A stretch of DNA of 64,000 nucleotides, taken from positions 1-64,000 of the forward strand of contig DAHUZH010000004.1 of assembly GCA_027306695.1 (NCBI GenBank), read 5' to 3'. This document shows, piece after piece, positions 1,636 to 19,410 of the stretch. Position 1 is the stretch's first letter; each line of letters opens with the position of its first letter. Position numbers and translations under genes: made by a program. The stretch is from Acidobacteriaceae bacterium. GTDB lineage: Bacteria > Acidobacteriota > Terriglobia > Terriglobales > Acidobacteriaceae. Under the pieces are notes generated by a model. That model saw only the letters and a list, made by a program, of their open reading frames with translations. It did no database searches and was not told the origin of the DNA.

Positions 1636-2793
1636 ATGCCTCCACCTGTTTCGCTCATGGCATCTCATCAGGCCCGCTTTGGCGAGCAGGGACGCGCCTT
1701 TCAAGCGCCGGGGCGCGTCAACCTGATTGGAGAACACACGGACACCAGCGAAGGCTTCGTGCTGCCCGCAGCCCTCGATCTCCGAACTATTTCCGTCTTA
1801 AGCCCACGCACCGATTCCAAGGCAAATTTTTTTTCCGTCAATTTTGAGCAGCAGGCCACCTTCGATCTGCGGCAATTGCCAAATGGTCCGCGACGTCATT
1901 GGAGCGACTATCCGGCGAGCGTTCTATGGAGCCTGCAACAGCGCGGCATACGCTGCGATGGCTTCGACATGACGCTCTCAGGCAACGTGCCGGTCGGCTC
2001 CGGGTTGAGTTCGTCGGCATCGGTCGAGGTCGCTGTCGCTGTGGCCGTTCTCGCTCACGCGGGAATCGAACTGCCCAAACCTGAGGTCGCCAAAATCTGC
2101 CAGTCCGCCGAGAACAATTTTATCGGCGCGCAAAGCGGCATCATGGACCAGTTCACTTCCTGCTGTGGGGTGGAAGGCCATGCCATTTTGCTGGACTGCC
2201 GGTCGCTCGCGTACGAGCCATTGCCGCTGCCGGAACAAGTGCTGCTGGTGATCTGCAACACCATGGTGAAGCATTCGCTCTCCGACGGAGGCGAATACAA
2301 CGAGCGTCGCGCGGAAGTGCAAGAGGGCCTGCGAATCTTTCAGGCGCATCGCCCGGCAATCCACACACTCCGAGATGTAGGCGAAGAGGAGTTGCGTTCC
2401 CACGCCAGCGAAATGCCGAAGAACGTGTTTCTCCGCTGCCTGCATGTGGTGACGGAAAATAGCCGTGTATTGCAGGCTGCCGAGGCGCTGCGAACCCTCG
2501 ATTTCGCGAACTTTGGCCAACGCATGCACGAGGCCCACATCAGCATGCGCGACAACTACGCGGCCAGTTGCGCCGAGGCGGACACGCTGGTCGAACTGGC
2601 GGAAAAGCAGCCCGGCTGCTACGGCGCGCGCATCACCGGAGCCGGCTTTGGTGGCTGCACCGTAAACCTGGTGGCGACGGAGCATACAGATAAATTTGTT
2701 AAAAATGTACGCGCCGGATATCGGCAAGCCACAGGAATCCAAGCTGAGATTTATTTATCTCGCGCATCGGACGGCGCAGGGCCGTTAATGTAG
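1636..2793 (+). CDS. galK: Galactokinase
   Basis: Galactokinase phosphorylates alpha-D-galactose at C1 with ATP, the first committed step of the Leloir pathway. The 385-residue length is normal for the family. The galactokinase signature GRVNLIGEHTD lies at residues 26-36, the GHMP ATP-binding loop PVGSGLSSSAS at 119-129, the catalytic-base region GIMDQF at about 168-173 (Asp171), and the C-terminal GHMP motif GAGFGGCTV near residue 335. An in-frame Met8 is a possible alternative start. The partner galT is about 55 kb away at 57760, so the pathway genes are not in one operon here. The gene converges on the GH38 gene across a repeat hairpin. Confidence 0.96.
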   Translation: MPPPVSLMASHQARFGEQGRAFQAPGRVNLIGEHTDTSEGFVLPAALDLRTISVLSPRTDSKANFFSVNFEQQATFDLRQLPNGPRRHWSDYPASVLWSLQQRGIRCDGFDMTLSGNVPVGSGLSSSASVEVAVAVAVLAHAGIELPKPEVAKICQSAENNFIGAQSGIMDQFTSCCGVEGHAILLDCRSLAYEPLPLPEQVLLVICNTMVKHSLSDGGEYNERRAEVQEGLRIFQAHRPAIHTLRDVGEEELRSHASEMPKNVFLRCLHVVTENSRVLQAAEALRTLDFANFGQRMHEAHISMRDNYAASCAEADTLVELAEKQPGCYGARITGAGFGGCTVNLVATEHTDKFVKNVRAGYRQATGIQAEIYLSRASDGAGPLM

Positions 2794-7466: not shown

Positions 7467-7832
7467 TTACAGGGAAGAGTGCTCGACGACTTCCAACTGG
7501 TCGCCAGCTTCGAGAGCATTGTGCTGGATGTGGCCTGCGGGCAGCTCCAGTACGGCATGGGTCTTCCAGCTTACGTCGCTGGTGCGCCACGGACGGAGGC
7601 CATGCCAGATGGCGCGGACGCGAAGCTGTCGGTCCAGCGCGACGATGTCGATTGGGAAACGCATGCCAAAGGTATGCACGCCGGACGAGGGCTGGATCAG
7701 CAGCCCACAGTCCGCATCCAGCCCCTTCCGTCCCAAAAGGCCGACCAGGCGCGTAAGAAACGTGTCGGCGACAGAGATCCTGGTTGCGACGACAGCGCCC
7801 TTCGTTCGATTCACAATCGTTATCAGTTTCAT
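7467..7832 (-). CDS. DUF192 family protein
   Basis: This 121-residue protein matches the DUF192 (COG1430) family, whose molecular role is not established. Recognisable pieces are TRLVGLLGRKGL near residue 27, GVHTFGMRFPIDIVALD in the middle (the family hallmark TFGM..PID..F/ALD), and a C-terminal VLELPAGHIQHNALEAGDQL. I chose ATG 7832 over a TTG 18 codons upstream because homologues begin near the MKLITI stretch. DUF192 genes are known to occur beside tad pilus loci, and here it follows the tad operon on the same strand. No signal peptide is visible with this start. Confidence 0.85.
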   Translation of the reverse strand: MKLITIVNRTKGAVVATRISVADTFLTRLVGLLGRKGLDADCGLLIQPSSGVHTFGMRFPIDIVALDRQLRVRAIWHGLRPWRTSDVSWKTHAVLELPAGHIQHNALEAGDQLEVVEHSSL

Positions 7833-8021: not shown

Positions 8022-8117
8022 TTACGCGGACTTCTTTTTCCGGCGCATGATGAGCACGGCAAGAACCACGATAAACAAAACTCCTGCAACCACCCGAACT
8101 ACCATTGATGTGTCCAT
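8022..8117 (-). CDS. 31-residue single-span membrane protein, copy 2 (tad-linked)
   Basis: This is a tiny gene: ATG 8117 to TAA 8022-8024, preceded by AAGGAG eight bases before the start. The product begins MDTSMVVRVVAGVLF, continues as a hydrophobic helix of about 20 residues, and ends in RRKKKSA. This is the layout of a single-span inner-membrane protein with a basic cytoplasmic tail. It is a clear paralogue of the 31-residue protein just upstream (8166-8261): same length, same MDT start, same R(V/I)VAGVLF core and the same R-R/K-rich end. Two similar reading frames, each with its own ribosome-binding site and differing mostly conservatively, argue for real genes. I do not recognise the family. 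Confidence 0.72.
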   Translation of the reverse strand: MDTSMVVRVVAGVLFIVVLAVLIMRRKKKSA

Positions 8118-8165
8118 TGCATATTCTCCTTTCTTTGCAGTATCGGAACTTTGCTCCCCAGAGCG

Positions 8166-8261
8166 TTAACTCGATTTCTTCTTTCTACGCGCGATCAGCG
8201 CACCGAGAACCACTACAAAAAGTACTCCAGCAACAATACGAATCAACGTCGTTGTATCCAA
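8166..8261 (-). CDS. 31-residue single-span membrane protein, copy 1 (tad-linked)
   Basis: This gene reads from TTG 8261 to TAA 8166-8168. The ribosome-binding site AAGGAGG lies eight bases before the TTG, and no ATG is available in frame. The product starts MDTTTLIRIVAGVLF, has a hydrophobic span through VVVLGALI, and ends in ARRKKKSS. It lies 57 bases downstream of tadC and 48 bases upstream of its paralogue (8022-8117), on the same strand, so it is probably the distal part of the tad transcript. It could be a small accessory subunit of the TadB/TadC platform or an unrelated small membrane protein. The function is unknown. Confidence 0.72.
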   Translation of the reverse strand: MDTTTLIRIVAGVLFVVVLGALIARRKKKSS

Positions 8262-8318
8262 TATCTCGCCCTCCTTTCCTGCGGCGTACTGTTTGCGCGC
8301 AACGTTTCATGCCCACAC

Positions 8319-9221
8319 TTAATGTCCCAGCCCAGTCAGCCCGCGGCCAATGCTGAGAACGGCGGGAGCCAGCAGCACGATGAACATGCTGGGGAAAATA
8401 AAAAGGACCAAGGGAAAGATCATTTTGACGGTCGTCTTTGCCGCCATTTCTTCCGCGCGTTGCCGCCGCTTCTGGCGTATGCCGTCGGCGAACACGCTCA
8501 ATGCACGGGCAATCGGCGTCCCAAATTTCTCCGTCTGCATCAGCATGCCGGTAAAGGCCGCAACGTCAGGCAGCTTGGTCCGGTCCGCCATGCTTTGCCA
8601 GGCATCCATCCGTGGCTTGCCCGCCCGCTGCTCGCGATTGATCTGGAGGAACTCCTCGTTGATCTCCGGGTGGCTGATGCTCAACTCCACTCCTACCCGC
8701 AGCATCGCCTGATCCAGCCCCAGCCCGGCATCTACACAGATCACCAGCAGATCGACAGCGTCTGGAATACTGCGCCGGACCCGCTCCCGCCGCGCCTTGA
8801 TGGCCCGATCCAGCCAGAAGTCGGGCGACAGGTAGGCCACTGCCGCCAGCGCGATGGCCCAGAAAAAAGTATTCGACGGAATAAAACTTCCAATCAGGAT
8901 GCCGAGCATCGGACCCAGCATCCGCGCGGCAAAATATATTTCGACATGACCGGCCCCACGCAGCCCGGTACTGTGAAAGCGTTGCCGGAGACGTTCATCG
9001 TCGACCAGTCCGACCTTGGCACGTACCGTGCGGACCGCATGCAGCAGCATCTGCTGGACGCGCTTTTTACTCGTTGGACGCGGGCCGGTCGTGGAGACGC
9101 TCGCTGTGACCTCTCGAACACGACGGTTGGAACGCGATTGTTCTCCAAACGCGATCGACCACAGGAGGGTCACTCCACAGAACAGCGTGATGCCGAAGGC
9201 AAAATAAAAGATGTTCATCAT
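8319..9221 (-). CDS. tadC: Tad pilus inner-membrane platform protein TadC (type II secretion F family)
   Basis: TadC and TadB form the polytopic inner-membrane platform on which the TadA ATPase acts during Flp pilus assembly. The 300-residue protein has an N-terminal membrane segment, a central T2SSF domain with the typical IPDAVDLLVICVDAGLGLDQA stretch (about residues 150-170), and C-terminal membrane spans ending in VLSIGRGL. It starts at ATG 9221, seven bases after tadB, and is followed by two 31-residue membrane-protein genes. The TadB/TadC assignment relies on order and length: tadA, tadB, tadC. Confidence 0.92.
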   Translation of the reverse strand: MMNIFYFAFGITLFCGVTLLWSIAFGEQSRSNRRVREVTASVSTTGPRPTSKKRVQQMLLHAVRTVRAKVGLVDDERLRQRFHSTGLRGAGHVEIYFAARMLGPMLGILIGSFIPSNTFFWAIALAAVAYLSPDFWLDRAIKARRERVRRSIPDAVDLLVICVDAGLGLDQAMLRVGVELSISHPEINEEFLQINREQRAGKPRMDAWQSMADRTKLPDVAAFTGMLMQTEKFGTPIARALSVFADGIRQKRRQRAEEMAAKTTVKMIFPLVLFIFPSMFIVLLAPAVLSIGRGLTGLGH

Positions 9222-9227
9222 GATGGT

Positions 9228-10196
9228 CTATACCTGTATGTCGACGATTCTGCGGATGATGAAGCTGCCAAAGACGATGAGGCCCGCGCCCGCATACAAA
9301 AGTTTTTGCCCGACCGGGTCGTGCAGAAGAATATAGGAATAGCCGGGATTGATCAGATTCAGCAGAAACAACATCAGCACAGGCAGCATGCTCAATATCC
9401 AGCCGGTCAGCCGCCCTTGCGCGGTATGCACGCGGATCTCGCCTTCAATCCGCAGACGTTCGCGAATCACATATGCGGTGCGGTCCAGGATTTCCGTCAG
9501 GTTGCCGCCGGTTTCCTTCTGCACCAGCATTGCCGTCACCATGAACCGCAAATCTTTCGAGGGCACGCGTTCCGCCATGAGCAACAACGCATCGCGCAGC
9601 GGCAGGCCGAAATTCTGTTGCCGGGACACCGCCTGGAACTCTATGGCCACGGCCTCCGCGGCCTGCTCGGACAGGACCTCAATGGCGGAGTTCAACGAAT
9701 GTCCCGCACGCAGCGCGCGGGACATCAGATCGATGGCGTCCGGCAGGCCGTTGTTGAATGCCAGCAATCTGTGAGTGCGCATGTATCTGAGAAACACGTA
9801 GGGAGCGCACAAACCAACGATTCCGATGATTGCATTCAGCAACATGACGGGGAAGAAGAAATCGGCTGCCAGAAATGAGAGGGTGCCAGCACCAAGACTG
9901 TAGATGAAAAAAGTCCCGATGCTCCAGTTGCTGCCAGCCTGCATGGAGAGTCTTTTCAGCGTGGCTGCAAAACGAAATCGGCTAAGAAATGTGTCCAGCC
10001 ATGGAAAGTGGCCCGGCACATCCTGCTTCAATATCCTCTCGGCATCCTCCTGGCGGCTTTTGTCCGCCTGGCGCGCCAGTTGCAGGTCGCCGACGCGCTG
10101 CTGTACGGCCTTCTCCCACTGCGTCTTGCGCGTAAGCAGCGCGACCAGCGCGAAGCTGAGGACAAGCACGGCAAAAAAGACAAGAAAAAGAAGCAT
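9228..10196 (-). CDS. tadB: Tad pilus inner-membrane platform protein TadB (type II secretion F family)
   Basis: TadB is the second platform protein of the Flp pilus machine. The 322-residue product has an N-terminal membrane helix (MLLFLVFFAVLVLSF), a charged cytoplasmic region, a pair of membrane spans, the T2SSF domain with GLPDAIDLMSRALRAGHSLN, and C-terminal spans around GWILSMLPVLMLFLLNL. The frame is open far upstream, but the ATG at 10196 has AGGAG eight bases before it and begins just 11 bases after the tadA stop. The longer version would overlap tadA almost fully, so I rejected it. Confidence 0.92.
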   Translation of the reverse strand: MLLFLVFFAVLVLSFALVALLTRKTQWEKAVQQRVGDLQLARQADKSRQEDAERILKQDVPGHFPWLDTFLSRFRFAATLKRLSMQAGSNWSIGTFFIYSLGAGTLSFLAADFFFPVMLLNAIIGIVGLCAPYVFLRYMRTHRLLAFNNGLPDAIDLMSRALRAGHSLNSAIEVLSEQAAEAVAIEFQAVSRQQNFGLPLRDALLLMAERVPSKDLRFMVTAMLVQKETGGNLTEILDRTAYVIRERLRIEGEIRVHTAQGRLTGWILSMLPVLMLFLLNLINPGYSYILLHDPVGQKLLYAGAGLIVFGSFIIRRIVDIQV

Positions 10197-10207
10197 GCGC
10201 CAAACTC

Positions 10208-11560
10208 CTAAACTTCCAGTGAGTGGTCGAGCAGGTTCAGTGGCAACGGGATGCCGGAGGCCTTGAGCTTCTCGGCAAACTTGGGAATGATTCCTGTGGC
10301 GGCGAACCGTCCGCGTACTTTGCCATTCGCTCCGAGGCCCTGTTTCTCGAACAGGAAAATGTCCTGCATGCTGATGACTTCTCCGCTGGTGCCGGTAATC
10401 TCGCTGACATGGGTAATGCGCCGGGCCCCATCGCTCATACGGGACACTTGCACAATCACATGGACAGCGGCGGCAATCTGTTGCCGAATGGCCTTTTCCG
10501 GCAACGCGATGTTTCCCATCATGGCCATTGTTTCGATTCGCGAAATCGCCTCGCGCGGATTGTTGGCGTGGATCGTCGTAATGGAGCCATCGTGGCCCGT
10601 GTTCATCGCCTGCAACATGTCGAGCGCTTCTTCTCCGCGTACCTCGCCCAGGACAATGCGGTCGGGCCGCATTCTGAGAGCGTTGATGACCAGCTCGCGC
10701 TGCCGTATCGCGCCGCGCCCTTCCACATTCGGCGGTCTGCATTCCAGCCGAACCACATGGTCCTGCTTAAGCTGCAACTCGGCGGAATCTTCAATGGTCA
10801 CGATCCGCTCGCGTTCTGAAATAAAACTTGACAGCACATTCAGCAGTGTCGTTTTCCCCGCGCCGGTCCCGCCGGAAACCACAATGTTCAGCCGGGCGCG
10901 CACAGCGCCTTTCAGCGTCTCCAGCATCTGCGGCGTCAGCGCGCGGTTGCGTACCAGGTCGTCGGCATTCAGCGGGATGCTGCCGAAGCGCCGGATCGAC
11001 AGAATGGGGCCGTCCACGGCCAGCGGCGGAATGATGATGTTCACGCGGGAGCCGTCTTTCAGGCGCGCGTCGACCATCGGCGAGGACTCGTCGATACGCC
11101 GGCCAACGGCAGAGACGATCTTGTCGATGATGTGCATCAGGTGGGTGTCGTCTTTGAACACGACATTGGTTTTTTCCAGCATGCCCCGGCGCTCGACGTA
11201 GACGGTGTCAGAGGTGTTGACCAGGATGTCGCTGACGGTCGGGTCCTGCAACAATGGCTCCAGCGGGCCCAGCCCGAAGACTTCATCCATCACTTCCTTG
11301 GCCAGCCGGTCGCGTTCCACTGCGCTCAGCGGCACGCCCTGTTCGCCGATCAGTTGCTGGATCAGGCCCAGAAGCTGGAGCCGCGCAGCGCGGTTCTCCT
11401 GGATGAACGCCAGCTTTTCCAGGTCCATTCGCTTAAGCAGCTCATGATGTACCGCCGATTTAATTTCCTGCTGCGTATTCAGCGAGACAGATTTCGGCAA
11501 CGGTACGGCCGCAAGGGCCGTACGTTCCGGCAAACTCATAGAAATCAGGGCATCCGCCAC
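10208..11560 (-). CDS. tadA: Tad pilus secretion ATPase TadA/CpaF
   Basis: This is a hexameric ATPase of the GspE/VirB11 superfamily that powers Flp pilus extension. The 450-residue length is typical of CpaF. The protein has an N-terminal domain (1-150), Walker [11 protein letters not shown] at 229-238, an Asp box near [12 protein letters not shown], Walker [12 protein letters not shown] at 302-312, and the His box [11 protein letters not shown] at 324-334. All catalytic elements look intact. It starts with GTG at 11560, with GGAGG seven bases upstream. It is flanked by tadZ and tadB on the same strand. It is not to be confused with the tRNA deaminase gene of the same name at 33553. Confidence 0.96.
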
Positions 11561-11596: not shown

Positions 11597-12829
11597 TCAT
11601 TTCCAGAAAGCAAAACGCTTGCGTTTCGGCGTTTCCGCATCCGGCGTGGAATGGGCCTGCACCAGCTTGTTGGCCCACTTGCTGATTTGGGTCGTGAACT
11701 CCGAGCGTCGCTGGGGAGAAATGGGTTCGCCCGCGTTGATGGCGCGCACCAGTTCCGCGTAATTGTTGGGGATAGTCACGGAAACAGGAAAGCGCACGGC
11801 GTTTTCCACCTGCTGCGAACTGACGGCATCGTTGGAGGAAGAACGATTGACGGCAATATGCAGCTTATTGGCTGCGGCCTCGTCGAGACCGAAGTTCTCC
11901 ACATGACGCGAAAGGTCGCGCAAGGCCGCCACATCGGGCGTGGAGACCAGGTAGACTTCATCGGAGCTTTCGACGATCGCCGAGTTCACATCCTGATATT
12001 CGAGCGAGGAATCCAGCAACACATAGTCGTACTGGCTGCGCAGAAATTCCAGCACCGTGTCCATTTCATGGGGATTGCCGTTGTATCGGACGGCACAGGT
12101 GTCGGGCGACGGAAGCACATCCAGGCCGCTGGGATGATGGGTTAGAAAACCGGCCAGCAGTTCCACATCGAGCCGGTCCACATTGCGCATCAGTTCATCG
12201 AAGTAGTACGGATTTTCTTTCAGCCCAAGATACAGACACACATGCCCGAGCTGATGGTGGTGGTCGATCAGCAGCGTCTTCTTGCGGTGCTGTCGGACCA
12301 GAAACGTGGACAGATAGACGGCCAGCGTAGTGGTCCCCACGCCTCCCTTTACCCCGAAAAATGAGATGATGTTGCCCGCGTTTTTCGGGGTGTCGGAGGA
12401 CATGGCGGCGAACCGCGCCTGCAGCCGGACGATGGTTTCGGTGTATTGAATCAGGTCGAAAGGCCGCGACAAAAATTCGGTGCAGCCCGCCCTCATCGCC
12501 TGCAACAGAAGATCGGAGTCGTTTCGCGTGGAGATGGCGACGGTGGCGATTTTTCCCGGGAAAAGCTGATGCAGAACCTCCGTCGTTACGATTGCCTGCT
12601 CCGGGTTGCGGTCGAAATCGATAATGGCGATGCAGGCCCCGCTGTCTTTGACCCGCTGGGAAAATTGCGGACGCTTGTTGCGGCCAATGTAGTCGTGAAA
12701 CTCTCCGGCAAATTCGGTGTCCGAGGCGTAGGCGCACCCATCCATGACATTGGCGACCGTTTCCTCGTCCGTGCAGACGGTGAAGACTGTGAATCTTGCC
12801 GGGCCCGTGTTGTGGTGCTTCATGATCAC
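11597..12829 (-). CDS. tadZ: TadZ/CpaE-like pilus localisation ATPase
   Basis: TadZ proteins are ParA/MinD-type ATPases with an N-terminal receiver-like domain that place the Tad machine in the cell. The first 145 residues form an atypical receiver (IAIIDFDR near 68-74, and AGCTEFLSRPFD at 114-125). A deviant Walker A, FGVKGGVGTTTLA, lies at 158-170 and is followed by LLIDHHHQLGHV. The usual Walker A' Asp is present, but the family's D-x-D-xxxG pattern is rewritten with a His triplet. The 410-residue length is typical. A GTG at 12829 (GGAG ten bases upstream) is preferred over ATG 12823. It lies between the secretin and tadA. Confidence 0.88.
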   Translation of the reverse strand: MIMKHHNTGPARFTVFTVCTDEETVANVMDGCAYASDTEFAGEFHDYIGRNKRPQFSQRVKDSGACIAIIDFDRNPEQAIVTTEVLHQLFPGKIATVAISTRNDSDLLLQAMRAGCTEFLSRPFDLIQYTETIVRLQARFAAMSSDTPKNAGNIISFFGVKGGVGTTTLAVYLSTFLVRQHRKKTLLIDHHHQLGHVCLYLGLKENPYYFDELMRNVDRLDVELLAGFLTHHPSGLDVLPSPDTCAVRYNGNPHEMDTVLEFLRSQYDYVLLDSSLEYQDVNSAIVESSDEVYLVSTPDVAALRDLSRHVENFGLDEAAANKLHIAVNRSSSNDAVSSQQVENAVRFPVSVTIPNNYAELVRAINAGEPISPQRRSEFTTQISKWANKLVQAHSTPDAETPKRKRFAFWK

Positions 12830-12866: not shown

Positions 12867-14321
12867 TCACTTTTTCTTTGCCTTTGTGGAAATCGGATTC
12901 ACGGACTGGTCGAAAGGGGCCACTCGCATGTTGGGGATCGACATCTTCGGCGTCACAGGCTGCACATTTTCATGCAGCGGATCGACCACCGTGGCGGTCA
13001 CGATCACCACCAGTTCTTCCACCGAGTGCGAGTTGTTCTTGGACTTAAACAGTTCCCCCAGGACCGGAACATTTCCAATGCCTGGAACTTTGCTCAGCAG
13101 CACCGTGGTTCGGTGGTCGAGCAGCCCCGAGATACTGAAGCTCTCGCCGCTCTTCAATTCCACCTCCGTGTCCGCGCGCCGCGTGGAAATGGCTGGGACG
13201 GTGTACCCGGAGATAGTGACGGCATTGGTATAGTCGAGCGCGCTGACCTCTGGATTGACCTTCAACTGAATGCTGCCATCCGGGTTGACGGTCGGCGTGA
13301 ACTGGAGCTTGACGCCATAGGGCTGGAACATGATCGTGACCGAGGCGAAGTTTCCCGCGCCGCCCTGAATGACTGGATAAGGGAACTCGCCGCCGGAAAG
13401 AAAGCTGGCCTGATGCCCGCTCATCGCCGTAATGGTTGGCTCGGCAAGGATCTGCAGGATGTTCTTCGCTTCCAGATCGGCGATCGTCATGCCGATGTTC
13501 AGCTTGGAGTTGTACAGAAACAGGTTCAGGGGATTGCTGACCGCCATTATGGATTGCGATCCGTTCAACAGGGGACTGACGCTGCTATATTGACCGGTCG
13601 AAACACTGGACGTATTTCTGCCATTGCTGAAAAAATTGAAGCCATACTGGTCCAGTTTCGTACGGTCCACTTCAGCAATACGTACCTTCAACTGCACTTG
13701 CTTGCTGTGTAGCTGGGTCACGAACAAAGAATTGACCACGTCTTTCGAGTAAAATGCCGCCAGCTTCGCCGCCTGCTTGTATGCATCGTCGCCGAGCACT
13801 ATGCCGGACAGATATACGCGCCCTTCCTGGGACTGGATGCGAACATCCTCCCCAGGCAGCGCTTGCGCCATGGACTGGCGCAGCGCCTCCACGTCCAAGT
13901 CCGCCGACACTGTATACAGCACGGTGTGCCCGGCATTGTCCCACAACGCGAGGCTGCTCACTCCGGGGGCCTTCGCCGTCACCACCACCTCATTGGGGCT
14001 GGAGGTCAGCGATTGAAGCACTGTCGGGTCGCTGACATAGACCCTGCGCAGCCGGTCGGCGCTTTTCAAGAAAATGGAATGGCCGATGATCAGATGGAGG
14101 TTTGTTGCAGCGCCATTGCTCCGCACTGTATCGCCGGAGGGAAGGCTGGCGAGAAAAGGCGCTCCCGCCGCGGACAAAGAGGCTGTAGCCACATGGGCCT
14201 GCGCGCGGACCGGCCCCGCACTCGCCAGGCTCAGCGACAGCAGGAGAGCGGCGAAGTGGAGACCGCGACGAATTGGAGTGTTTGTCTTCAAGGTTGTCGA
14301 CCCAATAGCAAACCGGTTCAT
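12867..14321 (-). CDS. cpaC: Tad pilus outer-membrane secretin CpaC/RcpA
   Basis: CpaC forms the outer-membrane channel through which the Flp pilus emerges. The 484-residue protein has a signal peptide (hydrophobic AALLLSLSLASAGPVRAQ at about residues 25-42), an N-terminal secretin-like domain, a BON-like segment with GRVYLSGIVLGDDA near 165, and the secretin core. The core includes SFLSGGEFPYPVIQGG, YGVKLQFTPTV and the C-terminal SGLLDHRTTVLLSKVPGIGNVPVLGELF. It starts at ATG 14321, 12 bases after cpaB. An outer-membrane secretin implies a diderm cell. Confidence 0.95.
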   Translation of the reverse strand: MNRFAIGSTTLKTNTPIRRGLHFAALLLSLSLASAGPVRAQAHVATASLSAAGAPFLASLPSGDTVRSNGAATNLHLIIGHSIFLKSADRLRRVYVSDPTVLQSLTSSPNEVVVTAKAPGVSSLALWDNAGHTVLYTVSADLDVEALRQSMAQALPGEDVRIQSQEGRVYLSGIVLGDDAYKQAAKLAAFYSKDVVNSLFVTQLHSKQVQLKVRIAEVDRTKLDQYGFNFFSNGRNTSSVSTGQYSSVSPLLNGSQSIMAVSNPLNLFLYNSKLNIGMTIADLEAKNILQILAEPTITAMSGHQASFLSGGEFPYPVIQGGAGNFASVTIMFQPYGVKLQFTPTVNPDGSIQLKVNPEVSALDYTNAVTISGYTVPAISTRRADTEVELKSGESFSISGLLDHRTTVLLSKVPGIGNVPVLGELFKSKNNSHSVEELVVIVTATVVDPLHENVQPVTPKMSIPNMRVAPFDQSVNPISTKAKKK

Positions 14322-14333
14322 TCAAAAATCCCG

Positions 14334-15131
14334 CTAAAAGCTGGTAGCACTCTGTTTGGTCCCCATCACCGTTTCGACCACGTAGGGTTTGGCCCGCACC
14401 ATCCCCTTGTGTCCGGGGCCAAGACGCTTTACATCTCCGCCTGCGATGAGTTGAGAGAGTTCCACCGGCGGGTCCTGCACCTGGCTGCGGTCCGTACTGT
14501 TGCGCAGCACGAAATGAATGCTGCCCTGGGTGCTCGCCAGCACCACCCGCTCGGCATCGTCTGGCTTCACCAGCAGTGTGACGACATTCACTGTGGCCGG
14601 CTTGCCATCCGGGTCGGGTTCCACCTGATGTCCCGCCGCCAGCACTATGGCGTCCTGCAGGACCGTCGCCGTCGTCGGCTCGGGAGTTTTGTCGGAGCGA
14701 TACGTCACCAGTACATCCACATGGGAGCCGGGAAAAAGAAATCCAGCCACGCCGACCACTTCATCCGAGCGCAGCGCCAGCGCCCGCATTCCCTCGGGAA
14801 TCTTCACCGTCAGACCCATGCCGGGGATGGCCAGGTCGCGGTCTAGAATAGGTTCGTTCGCCGCCAGCGGATACATCACCGCGCGCCCGACCAGGTCCTG
14901 CGGCTTGAGAAACGCGCCTTGCAACGGGACCGACGCCGGCCAATCGACCAGCTTGAGACTTTCGGGCTTCAACACTTCTCCCGCCTGCAACGGCAACGCC
15001 GCGGCGAGGTATCTCTGTTTCCGCACTGGCTCCTGCCCATGCACATGCATTTTTTTGCTGAGCAGAAGTGTGCATACCCCAGAGATCACCAGGGCAATCA
15101 GAAAAGCGGTGGTCAACCTGCGTTTCGCCAT
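14334..15131 (-). CDS. cpaB: Flp pilus assembly protein CpaB/RcpC
   Basis: CpaB is a periplasmic, membrane-anchored assembly factor of the Tad system. The 265-residue protein begins with a basic stretch and one membrane segment (FLIALVISGVCTLLLS). A SAF-type domain follows, with AALPLQAGEVLKPESLKLVDWP and AANEPILDRDLA (about residues 43-105), then the CpaB/RcpC domain with ALRSDEVVGVAGFLFPGSHVD near 125-145. It is packed tightly between the peptidase gene (4 bases) and the secretin gene (12 bases), which indicates one operon. Confidence 0.94.
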   Translation of the reverse strand: MAKRRLTTAFLIALVISGVCTLLLSKKMHVHGQEPVRKQRYLAAALPLQAGEVLKPESLKLVDWPASVPLQGAFLKPQDLVGRAVMYPLAANEPILDRDLAIPGMGLTVKIPEGMRALALRSDEVVGVAGFLFPGSHVDVLVTYRSDKTPEPTTATVLQDAIVLAAGHQVEPDPDGKPATVNVVTLLVKPDDAERVVLASTQGSIHFVLRNSTDRSQVQDPPVELSQLIAGGDVKRLGPGHKGMVRAKPYVVETVMGTKQSATSF

Positions 15132-15135
15132 CGCT

Positions 15136-15678
15136 TTACCTCAGTACAGTCCGCGCCAGCAATGTGGTCCAGCATCCAGCGGTGATCGCCGTCGCATACG
15201 GCAGCCGCAGTGTATTGGAATTCAATACATGAAGTTCAGGATGCGGCCGCAAGCCAGCCATGGCATGGTGCTGCATCAGCGCACCCACATTCATCAGCGT
15301 GGCTTTCAGCCGCCCATGAGAGATTGCAAGTACAAGAGCGAACACTCCACCCATCAGCGCCGTGGCGACGAAAATCTCCATGAGATGCCCAAACCCCGCA
15401 ATGCAGGCGACGGCCGCCATCAACTTGATGTCTCCCGCGCCCATGCCGCCAATGACGAAGAAAATAAAAAAAACCGCGCCGCCCGCAAGCCCGGCAAGGG
15501 CCGCCATGCCCATCGGCTTCCATCCACCCACAGCGAGATGGAGCAGCAGGCCAAAGATCAGGGAGGAGGCCGTCAGAAGATTTGGAATACGCCGCGTCCG
15601 CAGGTCATACACCGCGCCGATCGTGGCGCACACTGACGCGCACGTCAGGTACATATACTCAGGGAACAAAAATTTCAT
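15136..15678 (-). CDS. cpaA: Prepilin peptidase TadV/CpaA (A24 family)
   Basis: This is a membrane aspartic protease that cleaves the leader of the Flp pilin and the pseudopilins. Both family motifs are present: GAVYDLRTRRIPN (first catalytic Asp near residue 24) and GGMGAGDIKLMAA (the GxGD motif with the second catalytic Asp). The frame is open for 40 codons upstream, but the ATG at 15678 gives a 180-residue protein of normal TadV size. The alternative long form would add an unrelated hydrophilic N-terminus. It lies 211 bases downstream of the pilin gene and 4 bases before cpaB. Confidence 0.92.
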   Translation of the reverse strand: MKFLFPEYMYLTCASVCATIGAVYDLRTRRIPNLLTASSLIFGLLLHLAVGGWKPMGMAALAGLAGGAVFFIFFVIGGMGAGDIKLMAAVACIAGFGHLMEIFVATALMGGVFALVLAISHGRLKATLMNVGALMQHHAMAGLRPHPELHVLNSNTLRLPYATAITAGCWTTLLARTVLR

Positions 15679-15889
15679 CGAGATCACCAAGGCAAAATAA
15701 GCGGGCAACTCAAAAAATGCGGTTATCGTGCTTGCAAGATTCTTCTTGTCTCTGCAACGTCTGCGCGTTTCCAGAGAAAATTCAGACCGTAAAAGCATGG
15801 AGACGGGTACATGGCTGTCGGACCGTTTTCCATGCCTCTACGGGTTGTCGGTGAAACTAGGGAGCCTGTTTTGTGCGAGGTGTCCCTGC

Positions 15890-16072
15890 TTACATCGCAC
15901 TGGTCAGGGTGCTTCCAACGGTGCTGAAGGCTGTGCCGATGATGCTGCCGAGGCTTTTCATGGTGCCAACGGCGCCCAGGCCGATCAAAGCCGCAACGAG
16001 TGCGTATTCGATCAAGTCCTGACCGGAATCTTCTTTCACCAGGCGGATAAGAATTTCTTTCAAGTTTGTCAT
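15890..16072 (-). CDS. flp: Flp-type major pilin
   Basis: This is the 60-residue structural subunit of the Tad pilus. The leader MTNLKEILIRLVKEDSG precedes the cleavage site G|QDLIEYALVAALIGLG, which has the Flp hallmark Glu at mature position 5 followed by Tyr, and then one hydrophobic helix. The short C-terminal part (GTAFSTVGSTLTSAM) is typical. The frame continues upstream, but the ATG at 16072 has AAAGGAG six bases before it and gives the canonical size. It has its own upstream region with a hairpin leader and is separated from the TadG-like gene by 441 bases, so it probably has its own strong promoter. Confidence 0.95.
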   Translation of the reverse strand: MTNLKEILIRLVKEDSGQDLIEYALVAALIGLGAVGTMKSLGSIIGTAFSTVGSTLTSAM

Positions 16073-16513: not shown

Positions 16514-18199
16514 CTATTGCAGCATGCCGACTTTCAGCAGATACACGGAGGGCGCCGGATTCAACGCCAGATTGAGGATTCCACTGCCTGTCAGGCTGAT
16601 CTGGTCGGCCACAACCTCGCCCAGCACGAACGTGCCGCTGCTGGAGCCGCCAGTCAAACTAAAGACATCGGAGTAGCTGGTGGAGTGGAAATAGAGCGCG
16701 CCAGAAAAAGACAAGGCCCCAGAACCGGTAAATGTGGGTTGGATGGTGTTCGCGTGGTCCTGATACATCAGGATTCCGCGACTGCCCGGACTGCCACGGG
16801 AATCGCTGGTGTCGCCGCCAGCGTCCCAATAGGTTCCATTGGTCGCACACTGCCCCCACAGTACATTCCCATTTAGAGTGTTGGGCATGTTCAGGGCCGT
16901 GCTCGGCGCGCTTCCATCGCAGGTCAAAGATGTGGACGGCACTGGAATCAATGAGTTGGAACAGCCGGAACATCCGTGGATATCGACCGATCCAGAATAG
17001 AAATAGAACATCACGCCGTCCGTCTGCTGGCCCACGCTGCTGGAAAGCGGACTGCAGCTCGGTTTGCAAGGTGTCGCCATCCGCAGCGTGGCGCTGCCGC
17101 CTGCATTCAGCGAATTACCCATGTAATAAATGCCGGGTAGAAAAATGTAGGTTTGATAGCCGTTGGTTCGGATGCCGTTGGGATAGTAGCCTGGCGACAT
17201 CTCAATGCAAGGATTGCTGGTGTCGGGGCAGCCATCTTGCCCCGCTATCGATAGGCTCTGGGCTTTTTGCACGGAAGCTCCATTCAATCCGCTGGCTGGT
17301 GTGATCGACTTCACGGACAACGGTGTGCTGACACCCGCATATGGATCGCTGATGGGAAATACCCCTCCTGCCCACGTTCCCGTTGTCCCGCCGTTAAAGC
17401 CGCCGCCCCAGCATTGCGTCGGTGCTTTCGTCGGTCCGCCCACGGTCGCCACGTCGGAGCCTGTGCCTTTCGGTCCTCCCGCACTGGTGTTAATGATGCC
17501 GGATGGCTGGCAGTCGATGGCAGTTGTGCTGCTGGAGTTGACCTGAAGCGCGCGTTGCGGTCCGCCCACAATGTTCAACGCTCCTCCTCCACTGTAGGTG
17601 AAGGCGCCATACGCCGTGGGACTCAGCACGAGCACCGGCGCGGCCTCTTTCTCCTGCACCAGCCCGCAGGTACACGAAGCGGCGACTTGCTGATATCGGG
17701 TCCCATTCAGCGTGAACAGGAAATGCGTCTTTACGTTTTCCGTCACTGTCACCTTTAGAAATGGGTAGCTGGTGATCGAGGACGGCGGCGCAGTTGTACC
17801 TGGAACGGAAGTAGGGAAGGTCCAGGCAACCGAGTTGGAGGTCGTGTTGGTGTTCAGACCGGCCCCATTGTACCCATTCGCATTCGCATAAAAGCAGATG
17901 GTCCCGTCGGGATTGGCGCTACAGCTTCCATTGGTTCCCGGAGTGAAACCCATGTTCGGCAGCGACAAACCGGCCACCAGCCCGGACATATCCAGCGCGC
18001 CCGCTTGGCAGGCCGCATCTGCGGCAGACTGCTCCGCCTGGCGATGGAACCAGAGGTTCGTCAAATCGACGGCGAAGCCAACGATGGCCAATAGAAACAG
18101 GGCCAGCATCAACAGCAGGGAGACGAGCATCTGTCCGGACTCGTGGCCTTCGGCAGTGCCAGCGCGCGGTAGCAGTCGGGTTTTTCTGTTTGGCTGCAT
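16514..18199 (-). CDS. TadG-like pilus-associated protein
   Basis: This is a membrane-anchored, mostly extracytoplasmic protein of the Tad locus. The N-terminus carries the TadE/G-type signature: a basic start, then QMLVSLLLMLALFLLAIVG and AVDLTNLWFHRQAEQSAADA (about residues 23-62), which matches the putative Flp-assembly TadG N-terminal domain. The following 500 residues are rich in Gly, Ser, Thr and Cys. The cysteine pairs (GCPDTSNPC, TPCKPSC, GCSGC) suggest disulfides. I see no clear von Willebrand A metal site (DxSxS), which many TadG proteins have. It is 3 bases downstream of tadE. The N-terminal assignment is good; the function of the long C-terminal region is unknown. Confidence 0.78.
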   Translation of the reverse strand: MQPNRKTRLLPRAGTAEGHESGQMLVSLLLMLALFLLAIVGFAVDLTNLWFHRQAEQSAADAACQAGALDMSGLVAGLSLPNMGFTPGTNGSCSANPDGTICFYANANGYNGAGLNTNTTSNSVAWTFPTSVPGTTAPPSSITSYPFLKVTVTENVKTHFLFTLNGTRYQQVAASCTCGLVQEKEAAPVLVLSPTAYGAFTYSGGGALNIVGGPQRALQVNSSSTTAIDCQPSGIINTSAGGPKGTGSDVATVGGPTKAPTQCWGGGFNGGTTGTWAGGVFPISDPYAGVSTPLSVKSITPASGLNGASVQKAQSLSIAGQDGCPDTSNPCIEMSPGYYPNGIRTNGYQTYIFLPGIYYMGNSLNAGGSATLRMATPCKPSCSPLSSSVGQQTDGVMFYFYSGSVDIHGCSGCSNSLIPVPSTSLTCDGSAPSTALNMPNTLNGNVLWGQCATNGTYWDAGGDTSDSRGSPGSRGILMYQDHANTIQPTFTGSGALSFSGALYFHSTSYSDVFSLTGGSSSGTFVLGEVVADQISLTGSGILNLALNPAPSVYLLKVGMLQ

Positions 18200-18202
18200 G
18201 TC

Positions 18203-18697
18203 CTAGTAAGTAATGCGTCCCTGCGCGCTGAGTTGAATGGTATGGACGATGCCGGGAAGCTGGATGTACGGCACATAGGTGTACGTAATTGCAATGTTCA
18301 CCCTGGAGGGCGGACTGGAGCTGGCGTCGGGATACGTCACCTGCACCGCCATTTGCGAGATGTTGTGAAACGAGTAAGAGGCCGCGCTTTTGACCACCGC
18401 CACCACGTTTGCGCCGGACGAGTCCGAGCAACCGCTGCTGGGTCCGCTGCAATTGGTGCTGTCCGTCCCATGCACAATGGCATACCGCACGCCCTGCCGC
18501 GCCGCGTCTCCCAGCACGCTGTAGGTATAAGTGAGCATGCACATTTCAAACAGCCAGAAGACCATGGGCAGCGCCACCAGCAACGCCAGCGCCGCTTCCA
18601 CGAGTAACGACCCGTCGTCGGAGCGTAGAAAGCGTCTTCGGCGCAGCAGGGACTGCGTGTGCAGTAACAGTCTTCGCGATGGATTGGAATGCCTCAT
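18203..18697 (-). CDS. tadE: TadE-family minor pilin-like protein
   Basis: This is a pseudopilin-like component of the Tad machine. The 164-residue protein has a basic N-terminus and the TadE motif DDGSLLVEAALALLVALP, with Glu five residues into the hydrophobic helix (about 27-50), then a soluble domain with one CSGPSSGCS cysteine pair. The segment before the helix is a plausible substrate for the TadV peptidase. It starts at ATG 18697, directly after the stop of the upstream tadE-like gene (18698-18700), and its own stop is 3 bases before the tadG-like gene, so the three genes form one tight unit. Confidence 0.88.
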   Translation of the reverse strand: MRHSNPSRRLLLHTQSLLRRRRFLRSDDGSLLVEAALALLVALPMVFWLFEMCMLTYTYSVLGDAARQGVRYAIVHGTDSTNCSGPSSGCSDSSGANVVAVVKSAASYSFHNISQMAVQVTYPDASSSPPSRVNIAITYTYVPYIQLPGIVHTIQLSAQGRITY

Positions 18698-19246
18698 TTA
18701 ATCCAACACCCGCATGGAAACCTGACGGTGGAATTTGAGCGACGGGACCAGCGAATAGGAAAAGAAGCTGAGTGGAATTGGCGGCTGCACGGTATAGGTC
18801 ACGTCCACGCGGTTCAACAGAAAAGTCGGCGCTTCCGGGTCCGTGCCCGGCGTGTACGAGGCCCCACTCGGCCCGTAGCTGTCGCATAGCGTCGTCATAT
18901 TGTTGCTGGTCACGCCGATCTCTTTGGAGCAGACCTGCACCGTCGTGGTCGTCGAGGAACTGGCCAGGCTGGAGAGATCGCTGACGGCCAGCGCCGCCAC
19001 CGAAGTAATGCTGGAGATTGGCCCGGCGGCGGGCAGGCTGCTCTGCCCCGGCGATTCATAGCCTTGTATGGAATACTCCGCGGCATTGCGCGCGGACGAA
19101 CTCAGGTTCGCGGCGACGATAAAAAAATAGCCGAAGTCCACGGCGGCGACGACCAGCAGAATTAGGAGCGGCAGGAACAATGCGGTCTCCAGCAGGCTTT
19201 GACCGCCGTCATTGCGAATGTCTTTTTGCCGCGTCCGTCGATTCAT
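18698..19246 (-). CDS. Second TadE-family minor pilin-like protein (TadE/TadF type)
   Basis: This 182-residue protein has the TadE/F layout: a basic start, then GGQSLLETALFLPLLILLVVAA, with the conserved Glu in the N-terminal helix, and a Ser/Thr-rich soluble part with two cysteines (QVCSKEIG, TLCDSYG). I chose ATG 19246 over an in-frame GTG at 19255 because AAGG lies about nine bases upstream of the ATG. It is the first gene of the minor-pilin unit and abuts tadE with no gap. It is divergent from the polytopic protein gene at 19411, so the promoter should lie in 19247-19410. Confidence 0.85.
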   Translation of the reverse strand: MNRRTRQKDIRNDGGQSLLETALFLPLLILLVVAAVDFGYFFIVAANLSSSARNAAEYSIQGYESPGQSSLPAAGPISSITSVAALAVSDLSSLASSSTTTTVQVCSKEIGVTSNNMTTLCDSYGPSGASYTPGTDPEAPTFLLNRVDVTYTVQPPIPLSFFSYSLVPSLKFHRQVSMRVLD

Positions 19247-19410
19247 TGTCCGCACCTTTTCTTCTTCTTCCGCTCCGCGAGGCCCCCAGAATTCTCTGAA
19301 TTTCTCACGGAAGCCATCGATTCCGGTAATGATTTTTTGTCCTGTTGCCGATAACTTCCGTAATAGCTTGCAACAGCGATCCCAGGCAAAACGAGGAATT
19401 CTCCACCCCG

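Follow-up and report, generated by a model that had tools for sequence, protein, structure and literature searches.

The 64,000-nucleotide stretch of Acidobacteriaceae DNA analysed here (the window) carries, directly 3′ of tadC, two tandem genes of 31 codons plus a stop apiece, referred to below as copies A and B. Both are real protein-coding genes, and the small protein that they encode represents a new microprotein family, which spans the lineage and belongs to the Tad system. We consider it fairly probable that the two products are paralogous bitopic inner-membrane accessory subunits of the Acidobacteriota Tad machine, which would stabilise or tune the TadB/TadC platform; this reading is supported by tad linkage and protein architecture. 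Tad pili, one kind of type IV filament, are widespread. How TadB and TadC convert ATP hydrolysis to pilus extension and retraction is treated as an open question in PMC11300603. An additional conserved platform subunit, encoded next to tadC in a phylum prominent in soil, would offer a handle on the TadB/TadC mechanism, and also on the biology of the poorly studied Acidobacteriota pili.

Two small genes in a complete tad operon

Both genes are located on the minus strand. Copy B (8166..8261), which adjoins tadC, encodes MDTTTLIRIVAGVLFVVVLGALIARRKKKSS, and copy A (8022..8117) encodes MDTSMVVRVVAGVLFIVVLAVLIMRRKKKSA. Each has a Shine-Dalgarno sequence 8 nt before its start codon: AGGAGG (8270..8275, minus strand) in copy B and AAGGAG (8126..8131, minus strand) in copy A. 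The original prediction of two 31-residue frames with such sequences eight bases upstream was thus confirmed at these positions, and the common MDT start, core, hydrophobic span and KKK-S tail that it described are present in both copies. An ATG start codon holds for copy A but not for copy B, next to tadC, which begins with TTG. In both proteins a short N-terminus leads into a single membrane span, and the tail is basic (RRKKK). Their sequence identity is 68%, with differences at 10 of the 31 residues (32%), so that the earlier estimate of nearly half of the positions is too high for the protein, and the substitutions are, as had been noted, mostly conservative. At the DNA level, 33 of the 96 bases differ, with a pS of 0.74 (18.2/24.5) and a pN of 0.21 (13.8/65.5).

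The host operon is a complete tad operon, encoded entirely on the minus strand in the following order: two TadE-like genes and a TadG-like gene (together 16514..19255; Pfam Tad and TadE), the Flp pilin gene (15890..16072; GQDLIEYALV motif; Pfam Flp_Fap, E=3.4e-6, below cut-off), the prepilin peptidase gene tadV/cpaA (15136..15798; Pfam Peptidase_A24), rcpC/cpaB (14334..15131; Pfam RcpC), the secretin gene rcpA/cpaC (12867..14321; Pfam Secretin), a tadZ-like ATPase gene (11597..12829; Pfam AAA_31), the ATPase gene tadA (10208..11560; Pfam PF00437), the T2SSF platform gene tadB (9228..10196; Pfam PF00482), the T2SSF/GspF-like platform gene tadC (8319..9221; Pfam PF00482, E=1.2e-18; EpsF/PilC fold), copy B, copy A, and a DUF192 (COG1430) gene (7467..7832; Pfam PF02643, E=3.7e-18). 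The small genes had been placed at the end of the operon. They do lie 3′ of tadC in the same direction, but the run of same-strand genes continues past copy A with the DUF192 gene. A simple consensus scan of the small-gene region found no promoter-like site.

The same genome contains, on another contig, a second, diverged tad locus (L003; contig C370, positions 1-2191), whose TadC is 44% identical. This locus has its own tadB and tadC, and between tadC and its own DUF192 gene lies the small gene once more, as the third copy in this genome.

Distribution and linkage to tadC

The genome-wide searches were queried with the small protein alone, and tadC played no part in finding the copies. A single-sequence search at the family level gave matches in 100 of 300 genomes (26 of 79 genera), while a 34-row profile matched 137 of 299 genomes (65 of 106 genera) of the class Terriglobia. 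The profile also matched a few genomes from other classes of Acidobacteriota, in several of which the small gene is again found directly 3′ of tadC (loci L062, L070, L071, L073, L076 and L077). Weak phylum-level matches (L078-L080) were set aside as chance, and the plasmids searched for the small protein gave no match. A scan of 84,980 genomes of named species with one narrow motif, [AS]GVLFV[VI]VL, which says little on other phyla, revealed 43 loci, all titled Acidobacteriota and including Granulicella, Terracidiphilus, Occallatibacter, Bryobacterales and isolate KBS 96. Conservation of the frames beside tadC in relatives, on which the original prediction depended, was therefore found across the family, the class and the phylum; frame-disrupting changes were also looked for, and the matches are free of internal stops. 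The original interpretation is, for the most part, supported.

Linkage was assessed in the first 180 fetched loci, which yielded 151 distinct copies scoring at least 20 bits. In 143 of these copies the stop codon of a same-strand tadC precedes the start by 14-433 nt (median 48 nt). Counted by locus, tadC is present at 118 of 125 and DUF192 at 102 of 125. In the independent named collection, tadC is immediately upstream at all 43 loci and DUF192 is downstream at 42. One to three copies follow tadC in Acidobacteriota; tandem sets of two or three recur across many lineages and at about half of the 43 named loci, and the description of the window genes as tandem paralogues is correct.

Every genome of the Terriglobia sample with the small gene also has tadC (137/137), and the gene occurs in none of the 133 tadC-less genomes (Fisher p 2e-56, phylogeny ignored). 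The genetic linkage of the small gene to tadC is near-obligate, and its occurrence is nested within tadC-bearing genomes. It is encoded in tad loci and co-occurs with the core tad genes, as is expected of a Tad component. The small protein was never found without a Tad machine in the sampled genomes, which makes it very probable that it is a small component of that machine.

The same sample includes 29 genomes with tadC but no profile match. We fetched 18 profile-negative tadC loci from 17 of these genomes, and 11 of them have, just 3′ of tadC, an ORF that is diverged in sequence but shares this architecture, e.g. MSPAGWAKLALFVIFLILLVIVIKRRSSKS or the tandem pair MDQNVVQSIFWIATLAVLVLFLQRRRKRKASF / MNGTVMQAVLWIVAGLFLALLIVRRSKRKARS. 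The background of this architecture scan is 0.5% at random window positions, 0.7% after tadB genes and 1.1% after DUF192 genes; together with the 151 homologous copies found genome-wide, this low background rules out chance ORFs. No recognisable small ORF was seen at approximately 7 of the 18 loci, and the gene is thus not indispensable everywhere. In L129 and L132, tadC is followed directly by DUF192. At L133 the usual small gene is missing, and a different 27-residue single-span ORF, MINLTQLVILLVIIAIVIAAYGLRERT (approximately 2397-2480, plus strand), overlaps the tadC stop.

At some loci the gene has moved. In genome G430 (L106/L126) it is located about 5 kb downstream of tadC, beyond a TadG-like gene, and DUF192 lies directly 3′ of tadC; the spacing in G106 is similar. 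In G263 (L074) it is found amid Flp pilin-like sequence, between tadC and DUF192. Locus L155 (1589-4114, minus strand) contains a TadZ-like gene (recognised by inspection), the small gene and DUF192, with tadABC gone, and is apparently a decayed remnant of a tad locus that retained these three genes. The moved copies (L106, L074) and the tadABC-less copy (L155) are all still beside other tad genes. Orphans away from tad genes were found in L087 (3019-3105), L088 (3060-3134), L100 (591-659) and L156 (2597-2686); those of L087, L088 and L100 have an acidic end (DDEEF, DDF) that is absent from the window copies.

In these genomes a DUF192 gene usually lies downstream next to tadC, also at loci from which the small gene is absent or has moved (L129, L132, L126 and L127), and DUF192 may itself be Tad-associated; only one paper in the literature searched brings DUF192, tad and pilus together.

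Selection, protein architecture and naming

The 151 copies start with ATG (128), GTG (21) or TTG (2), match the Shine-Dalgarno consensus at 4/5 positions or better in 146 cases, and are mostly 30-33 residues long. In bins of 75-97% nucleotide identity, dN/dS is 0.14-0.24 (the pairs being non-independent and in part ascertained by protein similarity), and pN/pS among homologous copies is 0.18-0.33; the selection on protein that had been claimed is thereby borne out. At five loci of the same genus, the coding blocks and Shine-Dalgarno sequences are conserved against diverged spacers, and in most of them the tandem copies constitute two separately conserved groups.

The conserved positions include arginine at positions 25 (99%) and 26 (88%), G12 (79%) and R8 (79%). 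Residues 1-8 carry a net charge of 0 in 142 of the 151 copies, whereas the charge of the C-terminal tail is usually +4 or +5, and at least +3 in nearly all copies. Given this neutral N-terminus and basic tail, an N-out/C-in topology is expected by the positive-inside rule. The small protein combines the features of a bitopic accessory subunit, i.e. a single span, a length below about 50 aa, a gene encoded with those of the partner complex, and purifying selection. In several families, an N-terminal extension of approximately 16 residues (...LWLLQATPEGG...) precedes the conserved part (L108-L110, L113-L115, L070, L071 and L073), and the tail of these extended proteins ends in DDW or EEW.

Pfam, PHROGs and NCBIfam contain no family describing the small protein, and the matches obtained are generic span-plus-basic-tail models. 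The NCBI LPXTG_anchor model TIGR01167 exceeds its cut-off of 15.9 bits, with scores of 17.9 and 18.0. This model and Gram_pos_anchor (PF00746) score weakly because of their likeness to the small protein, a hydrophobic span followed by a basic tail; the small protein differs in being only 31 residues in all, in lacking LPxTG and in falling below the Pfam cut-off. The LPxTG sorting motif is present in none of the 151 copies, so that identity as an LPXTG cell-wall anchor is a false positive; a PEP-CTERM/LPXTG sorting tail was likewise rejected. Since the model exceeds its cut-off although the motif is missing from all copies, annotated members of the family are probably misnamed. It had been proposed that annotation pipelines skip genes this short; where such a gene is called, the LPXTG-anchor model would probably misname it rather than skip it. 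The family appears to be a group of microproteins hidden by short-ORF cut-offs, overlooked or mislabelled in gene catalogues.

A profile search of solved chains found no convincing relative, and the literature searched, which mostly excludes subscription papers, contains no description of the small protein. Five annotated Proteobacterial plasmid Tad loci have tadC followed by tadD or another gene, with no such ORF. The earlier statement that no such component is known in described Tad systems agrees with these loci and with the accessible portion of the literature searched.

Proposed role in the Tad machine

For copies A and B as accessory subunits we infer translation, insertion topology, TadB/TadC binding and an effect on pilus assembly. 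The small proteins would be made straight after TadC from the same operon, and each would insert with its short N-terminus on the periplasmic side and its basic tail on the cytoplasmic side, as predicted by the positive-inside rule. They may then pack against the membrane-embedded region of TadB/TadC, and this packing could stabilise the platform or tune its coupling to the TadA motor.

This most economical interpretation would have the small protein act in the manner of CydX, KdpF or AcrZ. KdpF is a small bitopic subunit of KdpFABC which modulates or stabilises a large inner-membrane complex, one that differs from Tad. AcrZ, the small subunit of AcrB (PMC7267776), is likewise bitopic and modulates or stabilises a large inner-membrane complex, again a different one. 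CydX (37 aa) of cytochrome bd oxidase (PMC4325964, PMC6005532) resembles the small protein in being single-span, encoded with the genes of its complex, tolerant of sequence change and prone to be missed by annotation; its partner is an oxidase and not a pilus platform, the partnership is proven for CydX alone, and no sequence relationship has been shown. The likely machine of the small protein is the Tad/Flp platform TadB/TadC (CpaG/CpaH), with which it shares an operon; TadB and TadC are GspF-like proteins of approximately 300 residues, unlike the 31-residue small protein. In the accessible parts of PMC11300603 and PMC12307814, the Tad platform is modelled as TadA6:TadB3:TadC3, with no mention of a small subunit.

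Copy B is in frame with tadC, and for the read-through product of the two (37 paired rows) AlphaFold2 predicted a helix at model residues 323-350 with a pLDDT of about 70-80; in this model, which does not address docking, TadC is confident, the linker is of low confidence and the helix is separate (pTM 0.69). A fold search with TadC returned only cytoplasmic domains of EpsF, OutF, PilC and TcpE, none at E ≤ 0.001.

A more ambitious form of the accessory-subunit reading is possible but doubtful. According to this proposal, the small protein is a nearly universal subunit of Acidobacteriota Tad, absent from Proteobacterial Tad, and the two or three separately conserved paralogues of a locus form a hetero-oligomeric helix collar around TadB/TadC, determining the way in which the single TadA motor powers extension or retraction. 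If true, the Acidobacteriota Tad system has a lineage-specific extra part that is missing from its Proteobacterial counterparts.

There is a minor yet appreciable probability that the small protein is a Tad-dedicated factor and not a stable subunit, i.e. a helper in TadC assembly, insertion or quality control, or a small regulator of extension and retraction. Its position directly 3′ of tadC and its sequence plasticity outside the span fit a subunit or a helper alike, and its absence at some loci fits a dispensable helper. Nothing in the analysis separates the two, but the occurrence within one genus of tandem paralogues that are each conserved separately speaks slightly more for a hetero-oligomeric subunit.

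That the small protein acts chiefly as a partner of the adjacent DUF192 protein, within a side pathway linked to Tad, is improbable. The frequency with which DUF192 follows it, in the linkage set and in the named collection, agrees with such a partnership, as does the L155 remnant, in which the two genes persist with a tadZ-like gene but without tadABC. However, at many loci in family f6 and in other classes the small gene accompanies tadC with no DUF192 nearby, and L126, L127, L129 and L132 have tadC and DUF192 with no small gene between them.

Small size, hydrophobicity, location in a pilus operon and, in L074, proximity to Flp pilins would suit a minor pilin or a secreted pilus-associated peptide. 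We nevertheless regard this as quite unlikely: no prepilin leader or cleavage site precedes the span, there is no Flp_Fap match, the neutral N-terminus and strongly basic C-terminus predict an orientation opposite to that of a prepilin, and the operon has its own Flp pilin. Type I toxin-like membrane peptides (as DinQ, TimP, Fst and Ldr) also come as tandem small hydrophobic peptides with basic tails, but such an identity is very improbable in view of the strict co-occurrence with tadC, the strong in-operon Shine-Dalgarno sequences and the Rfam search, in which no toxin or antitoxin RNA was matched up to E=1; moreover, spacers and synonymous sites are unconserved, and thus give no sign of an antisense RNA.

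The location of the ORFs between two same-strand genes could suggest leader peptides or cis-regulatory decoys coupling tadC to DUF192 translation, which is hardly credible given the amino-acid conservation (dN/dS of about 0.15) and the occurrence of the small gene without DUF192 and displaced within the cluster (L106, L074). It is equally hard to credit that the small protein represents the last transmembrane helix of TadC in detached form, supplying in trans a counterpart of the C-terminal hairpin of TadB: a terminal helix plus IR[RK] is present in TadB, and such a helix is missing from TadC, but no natural TadC fusion was found, and in a sliding profile comparison with controls the best match was another basic-ended TadB span (probability 49%), the TadB C-terminal helix reaching 10%.
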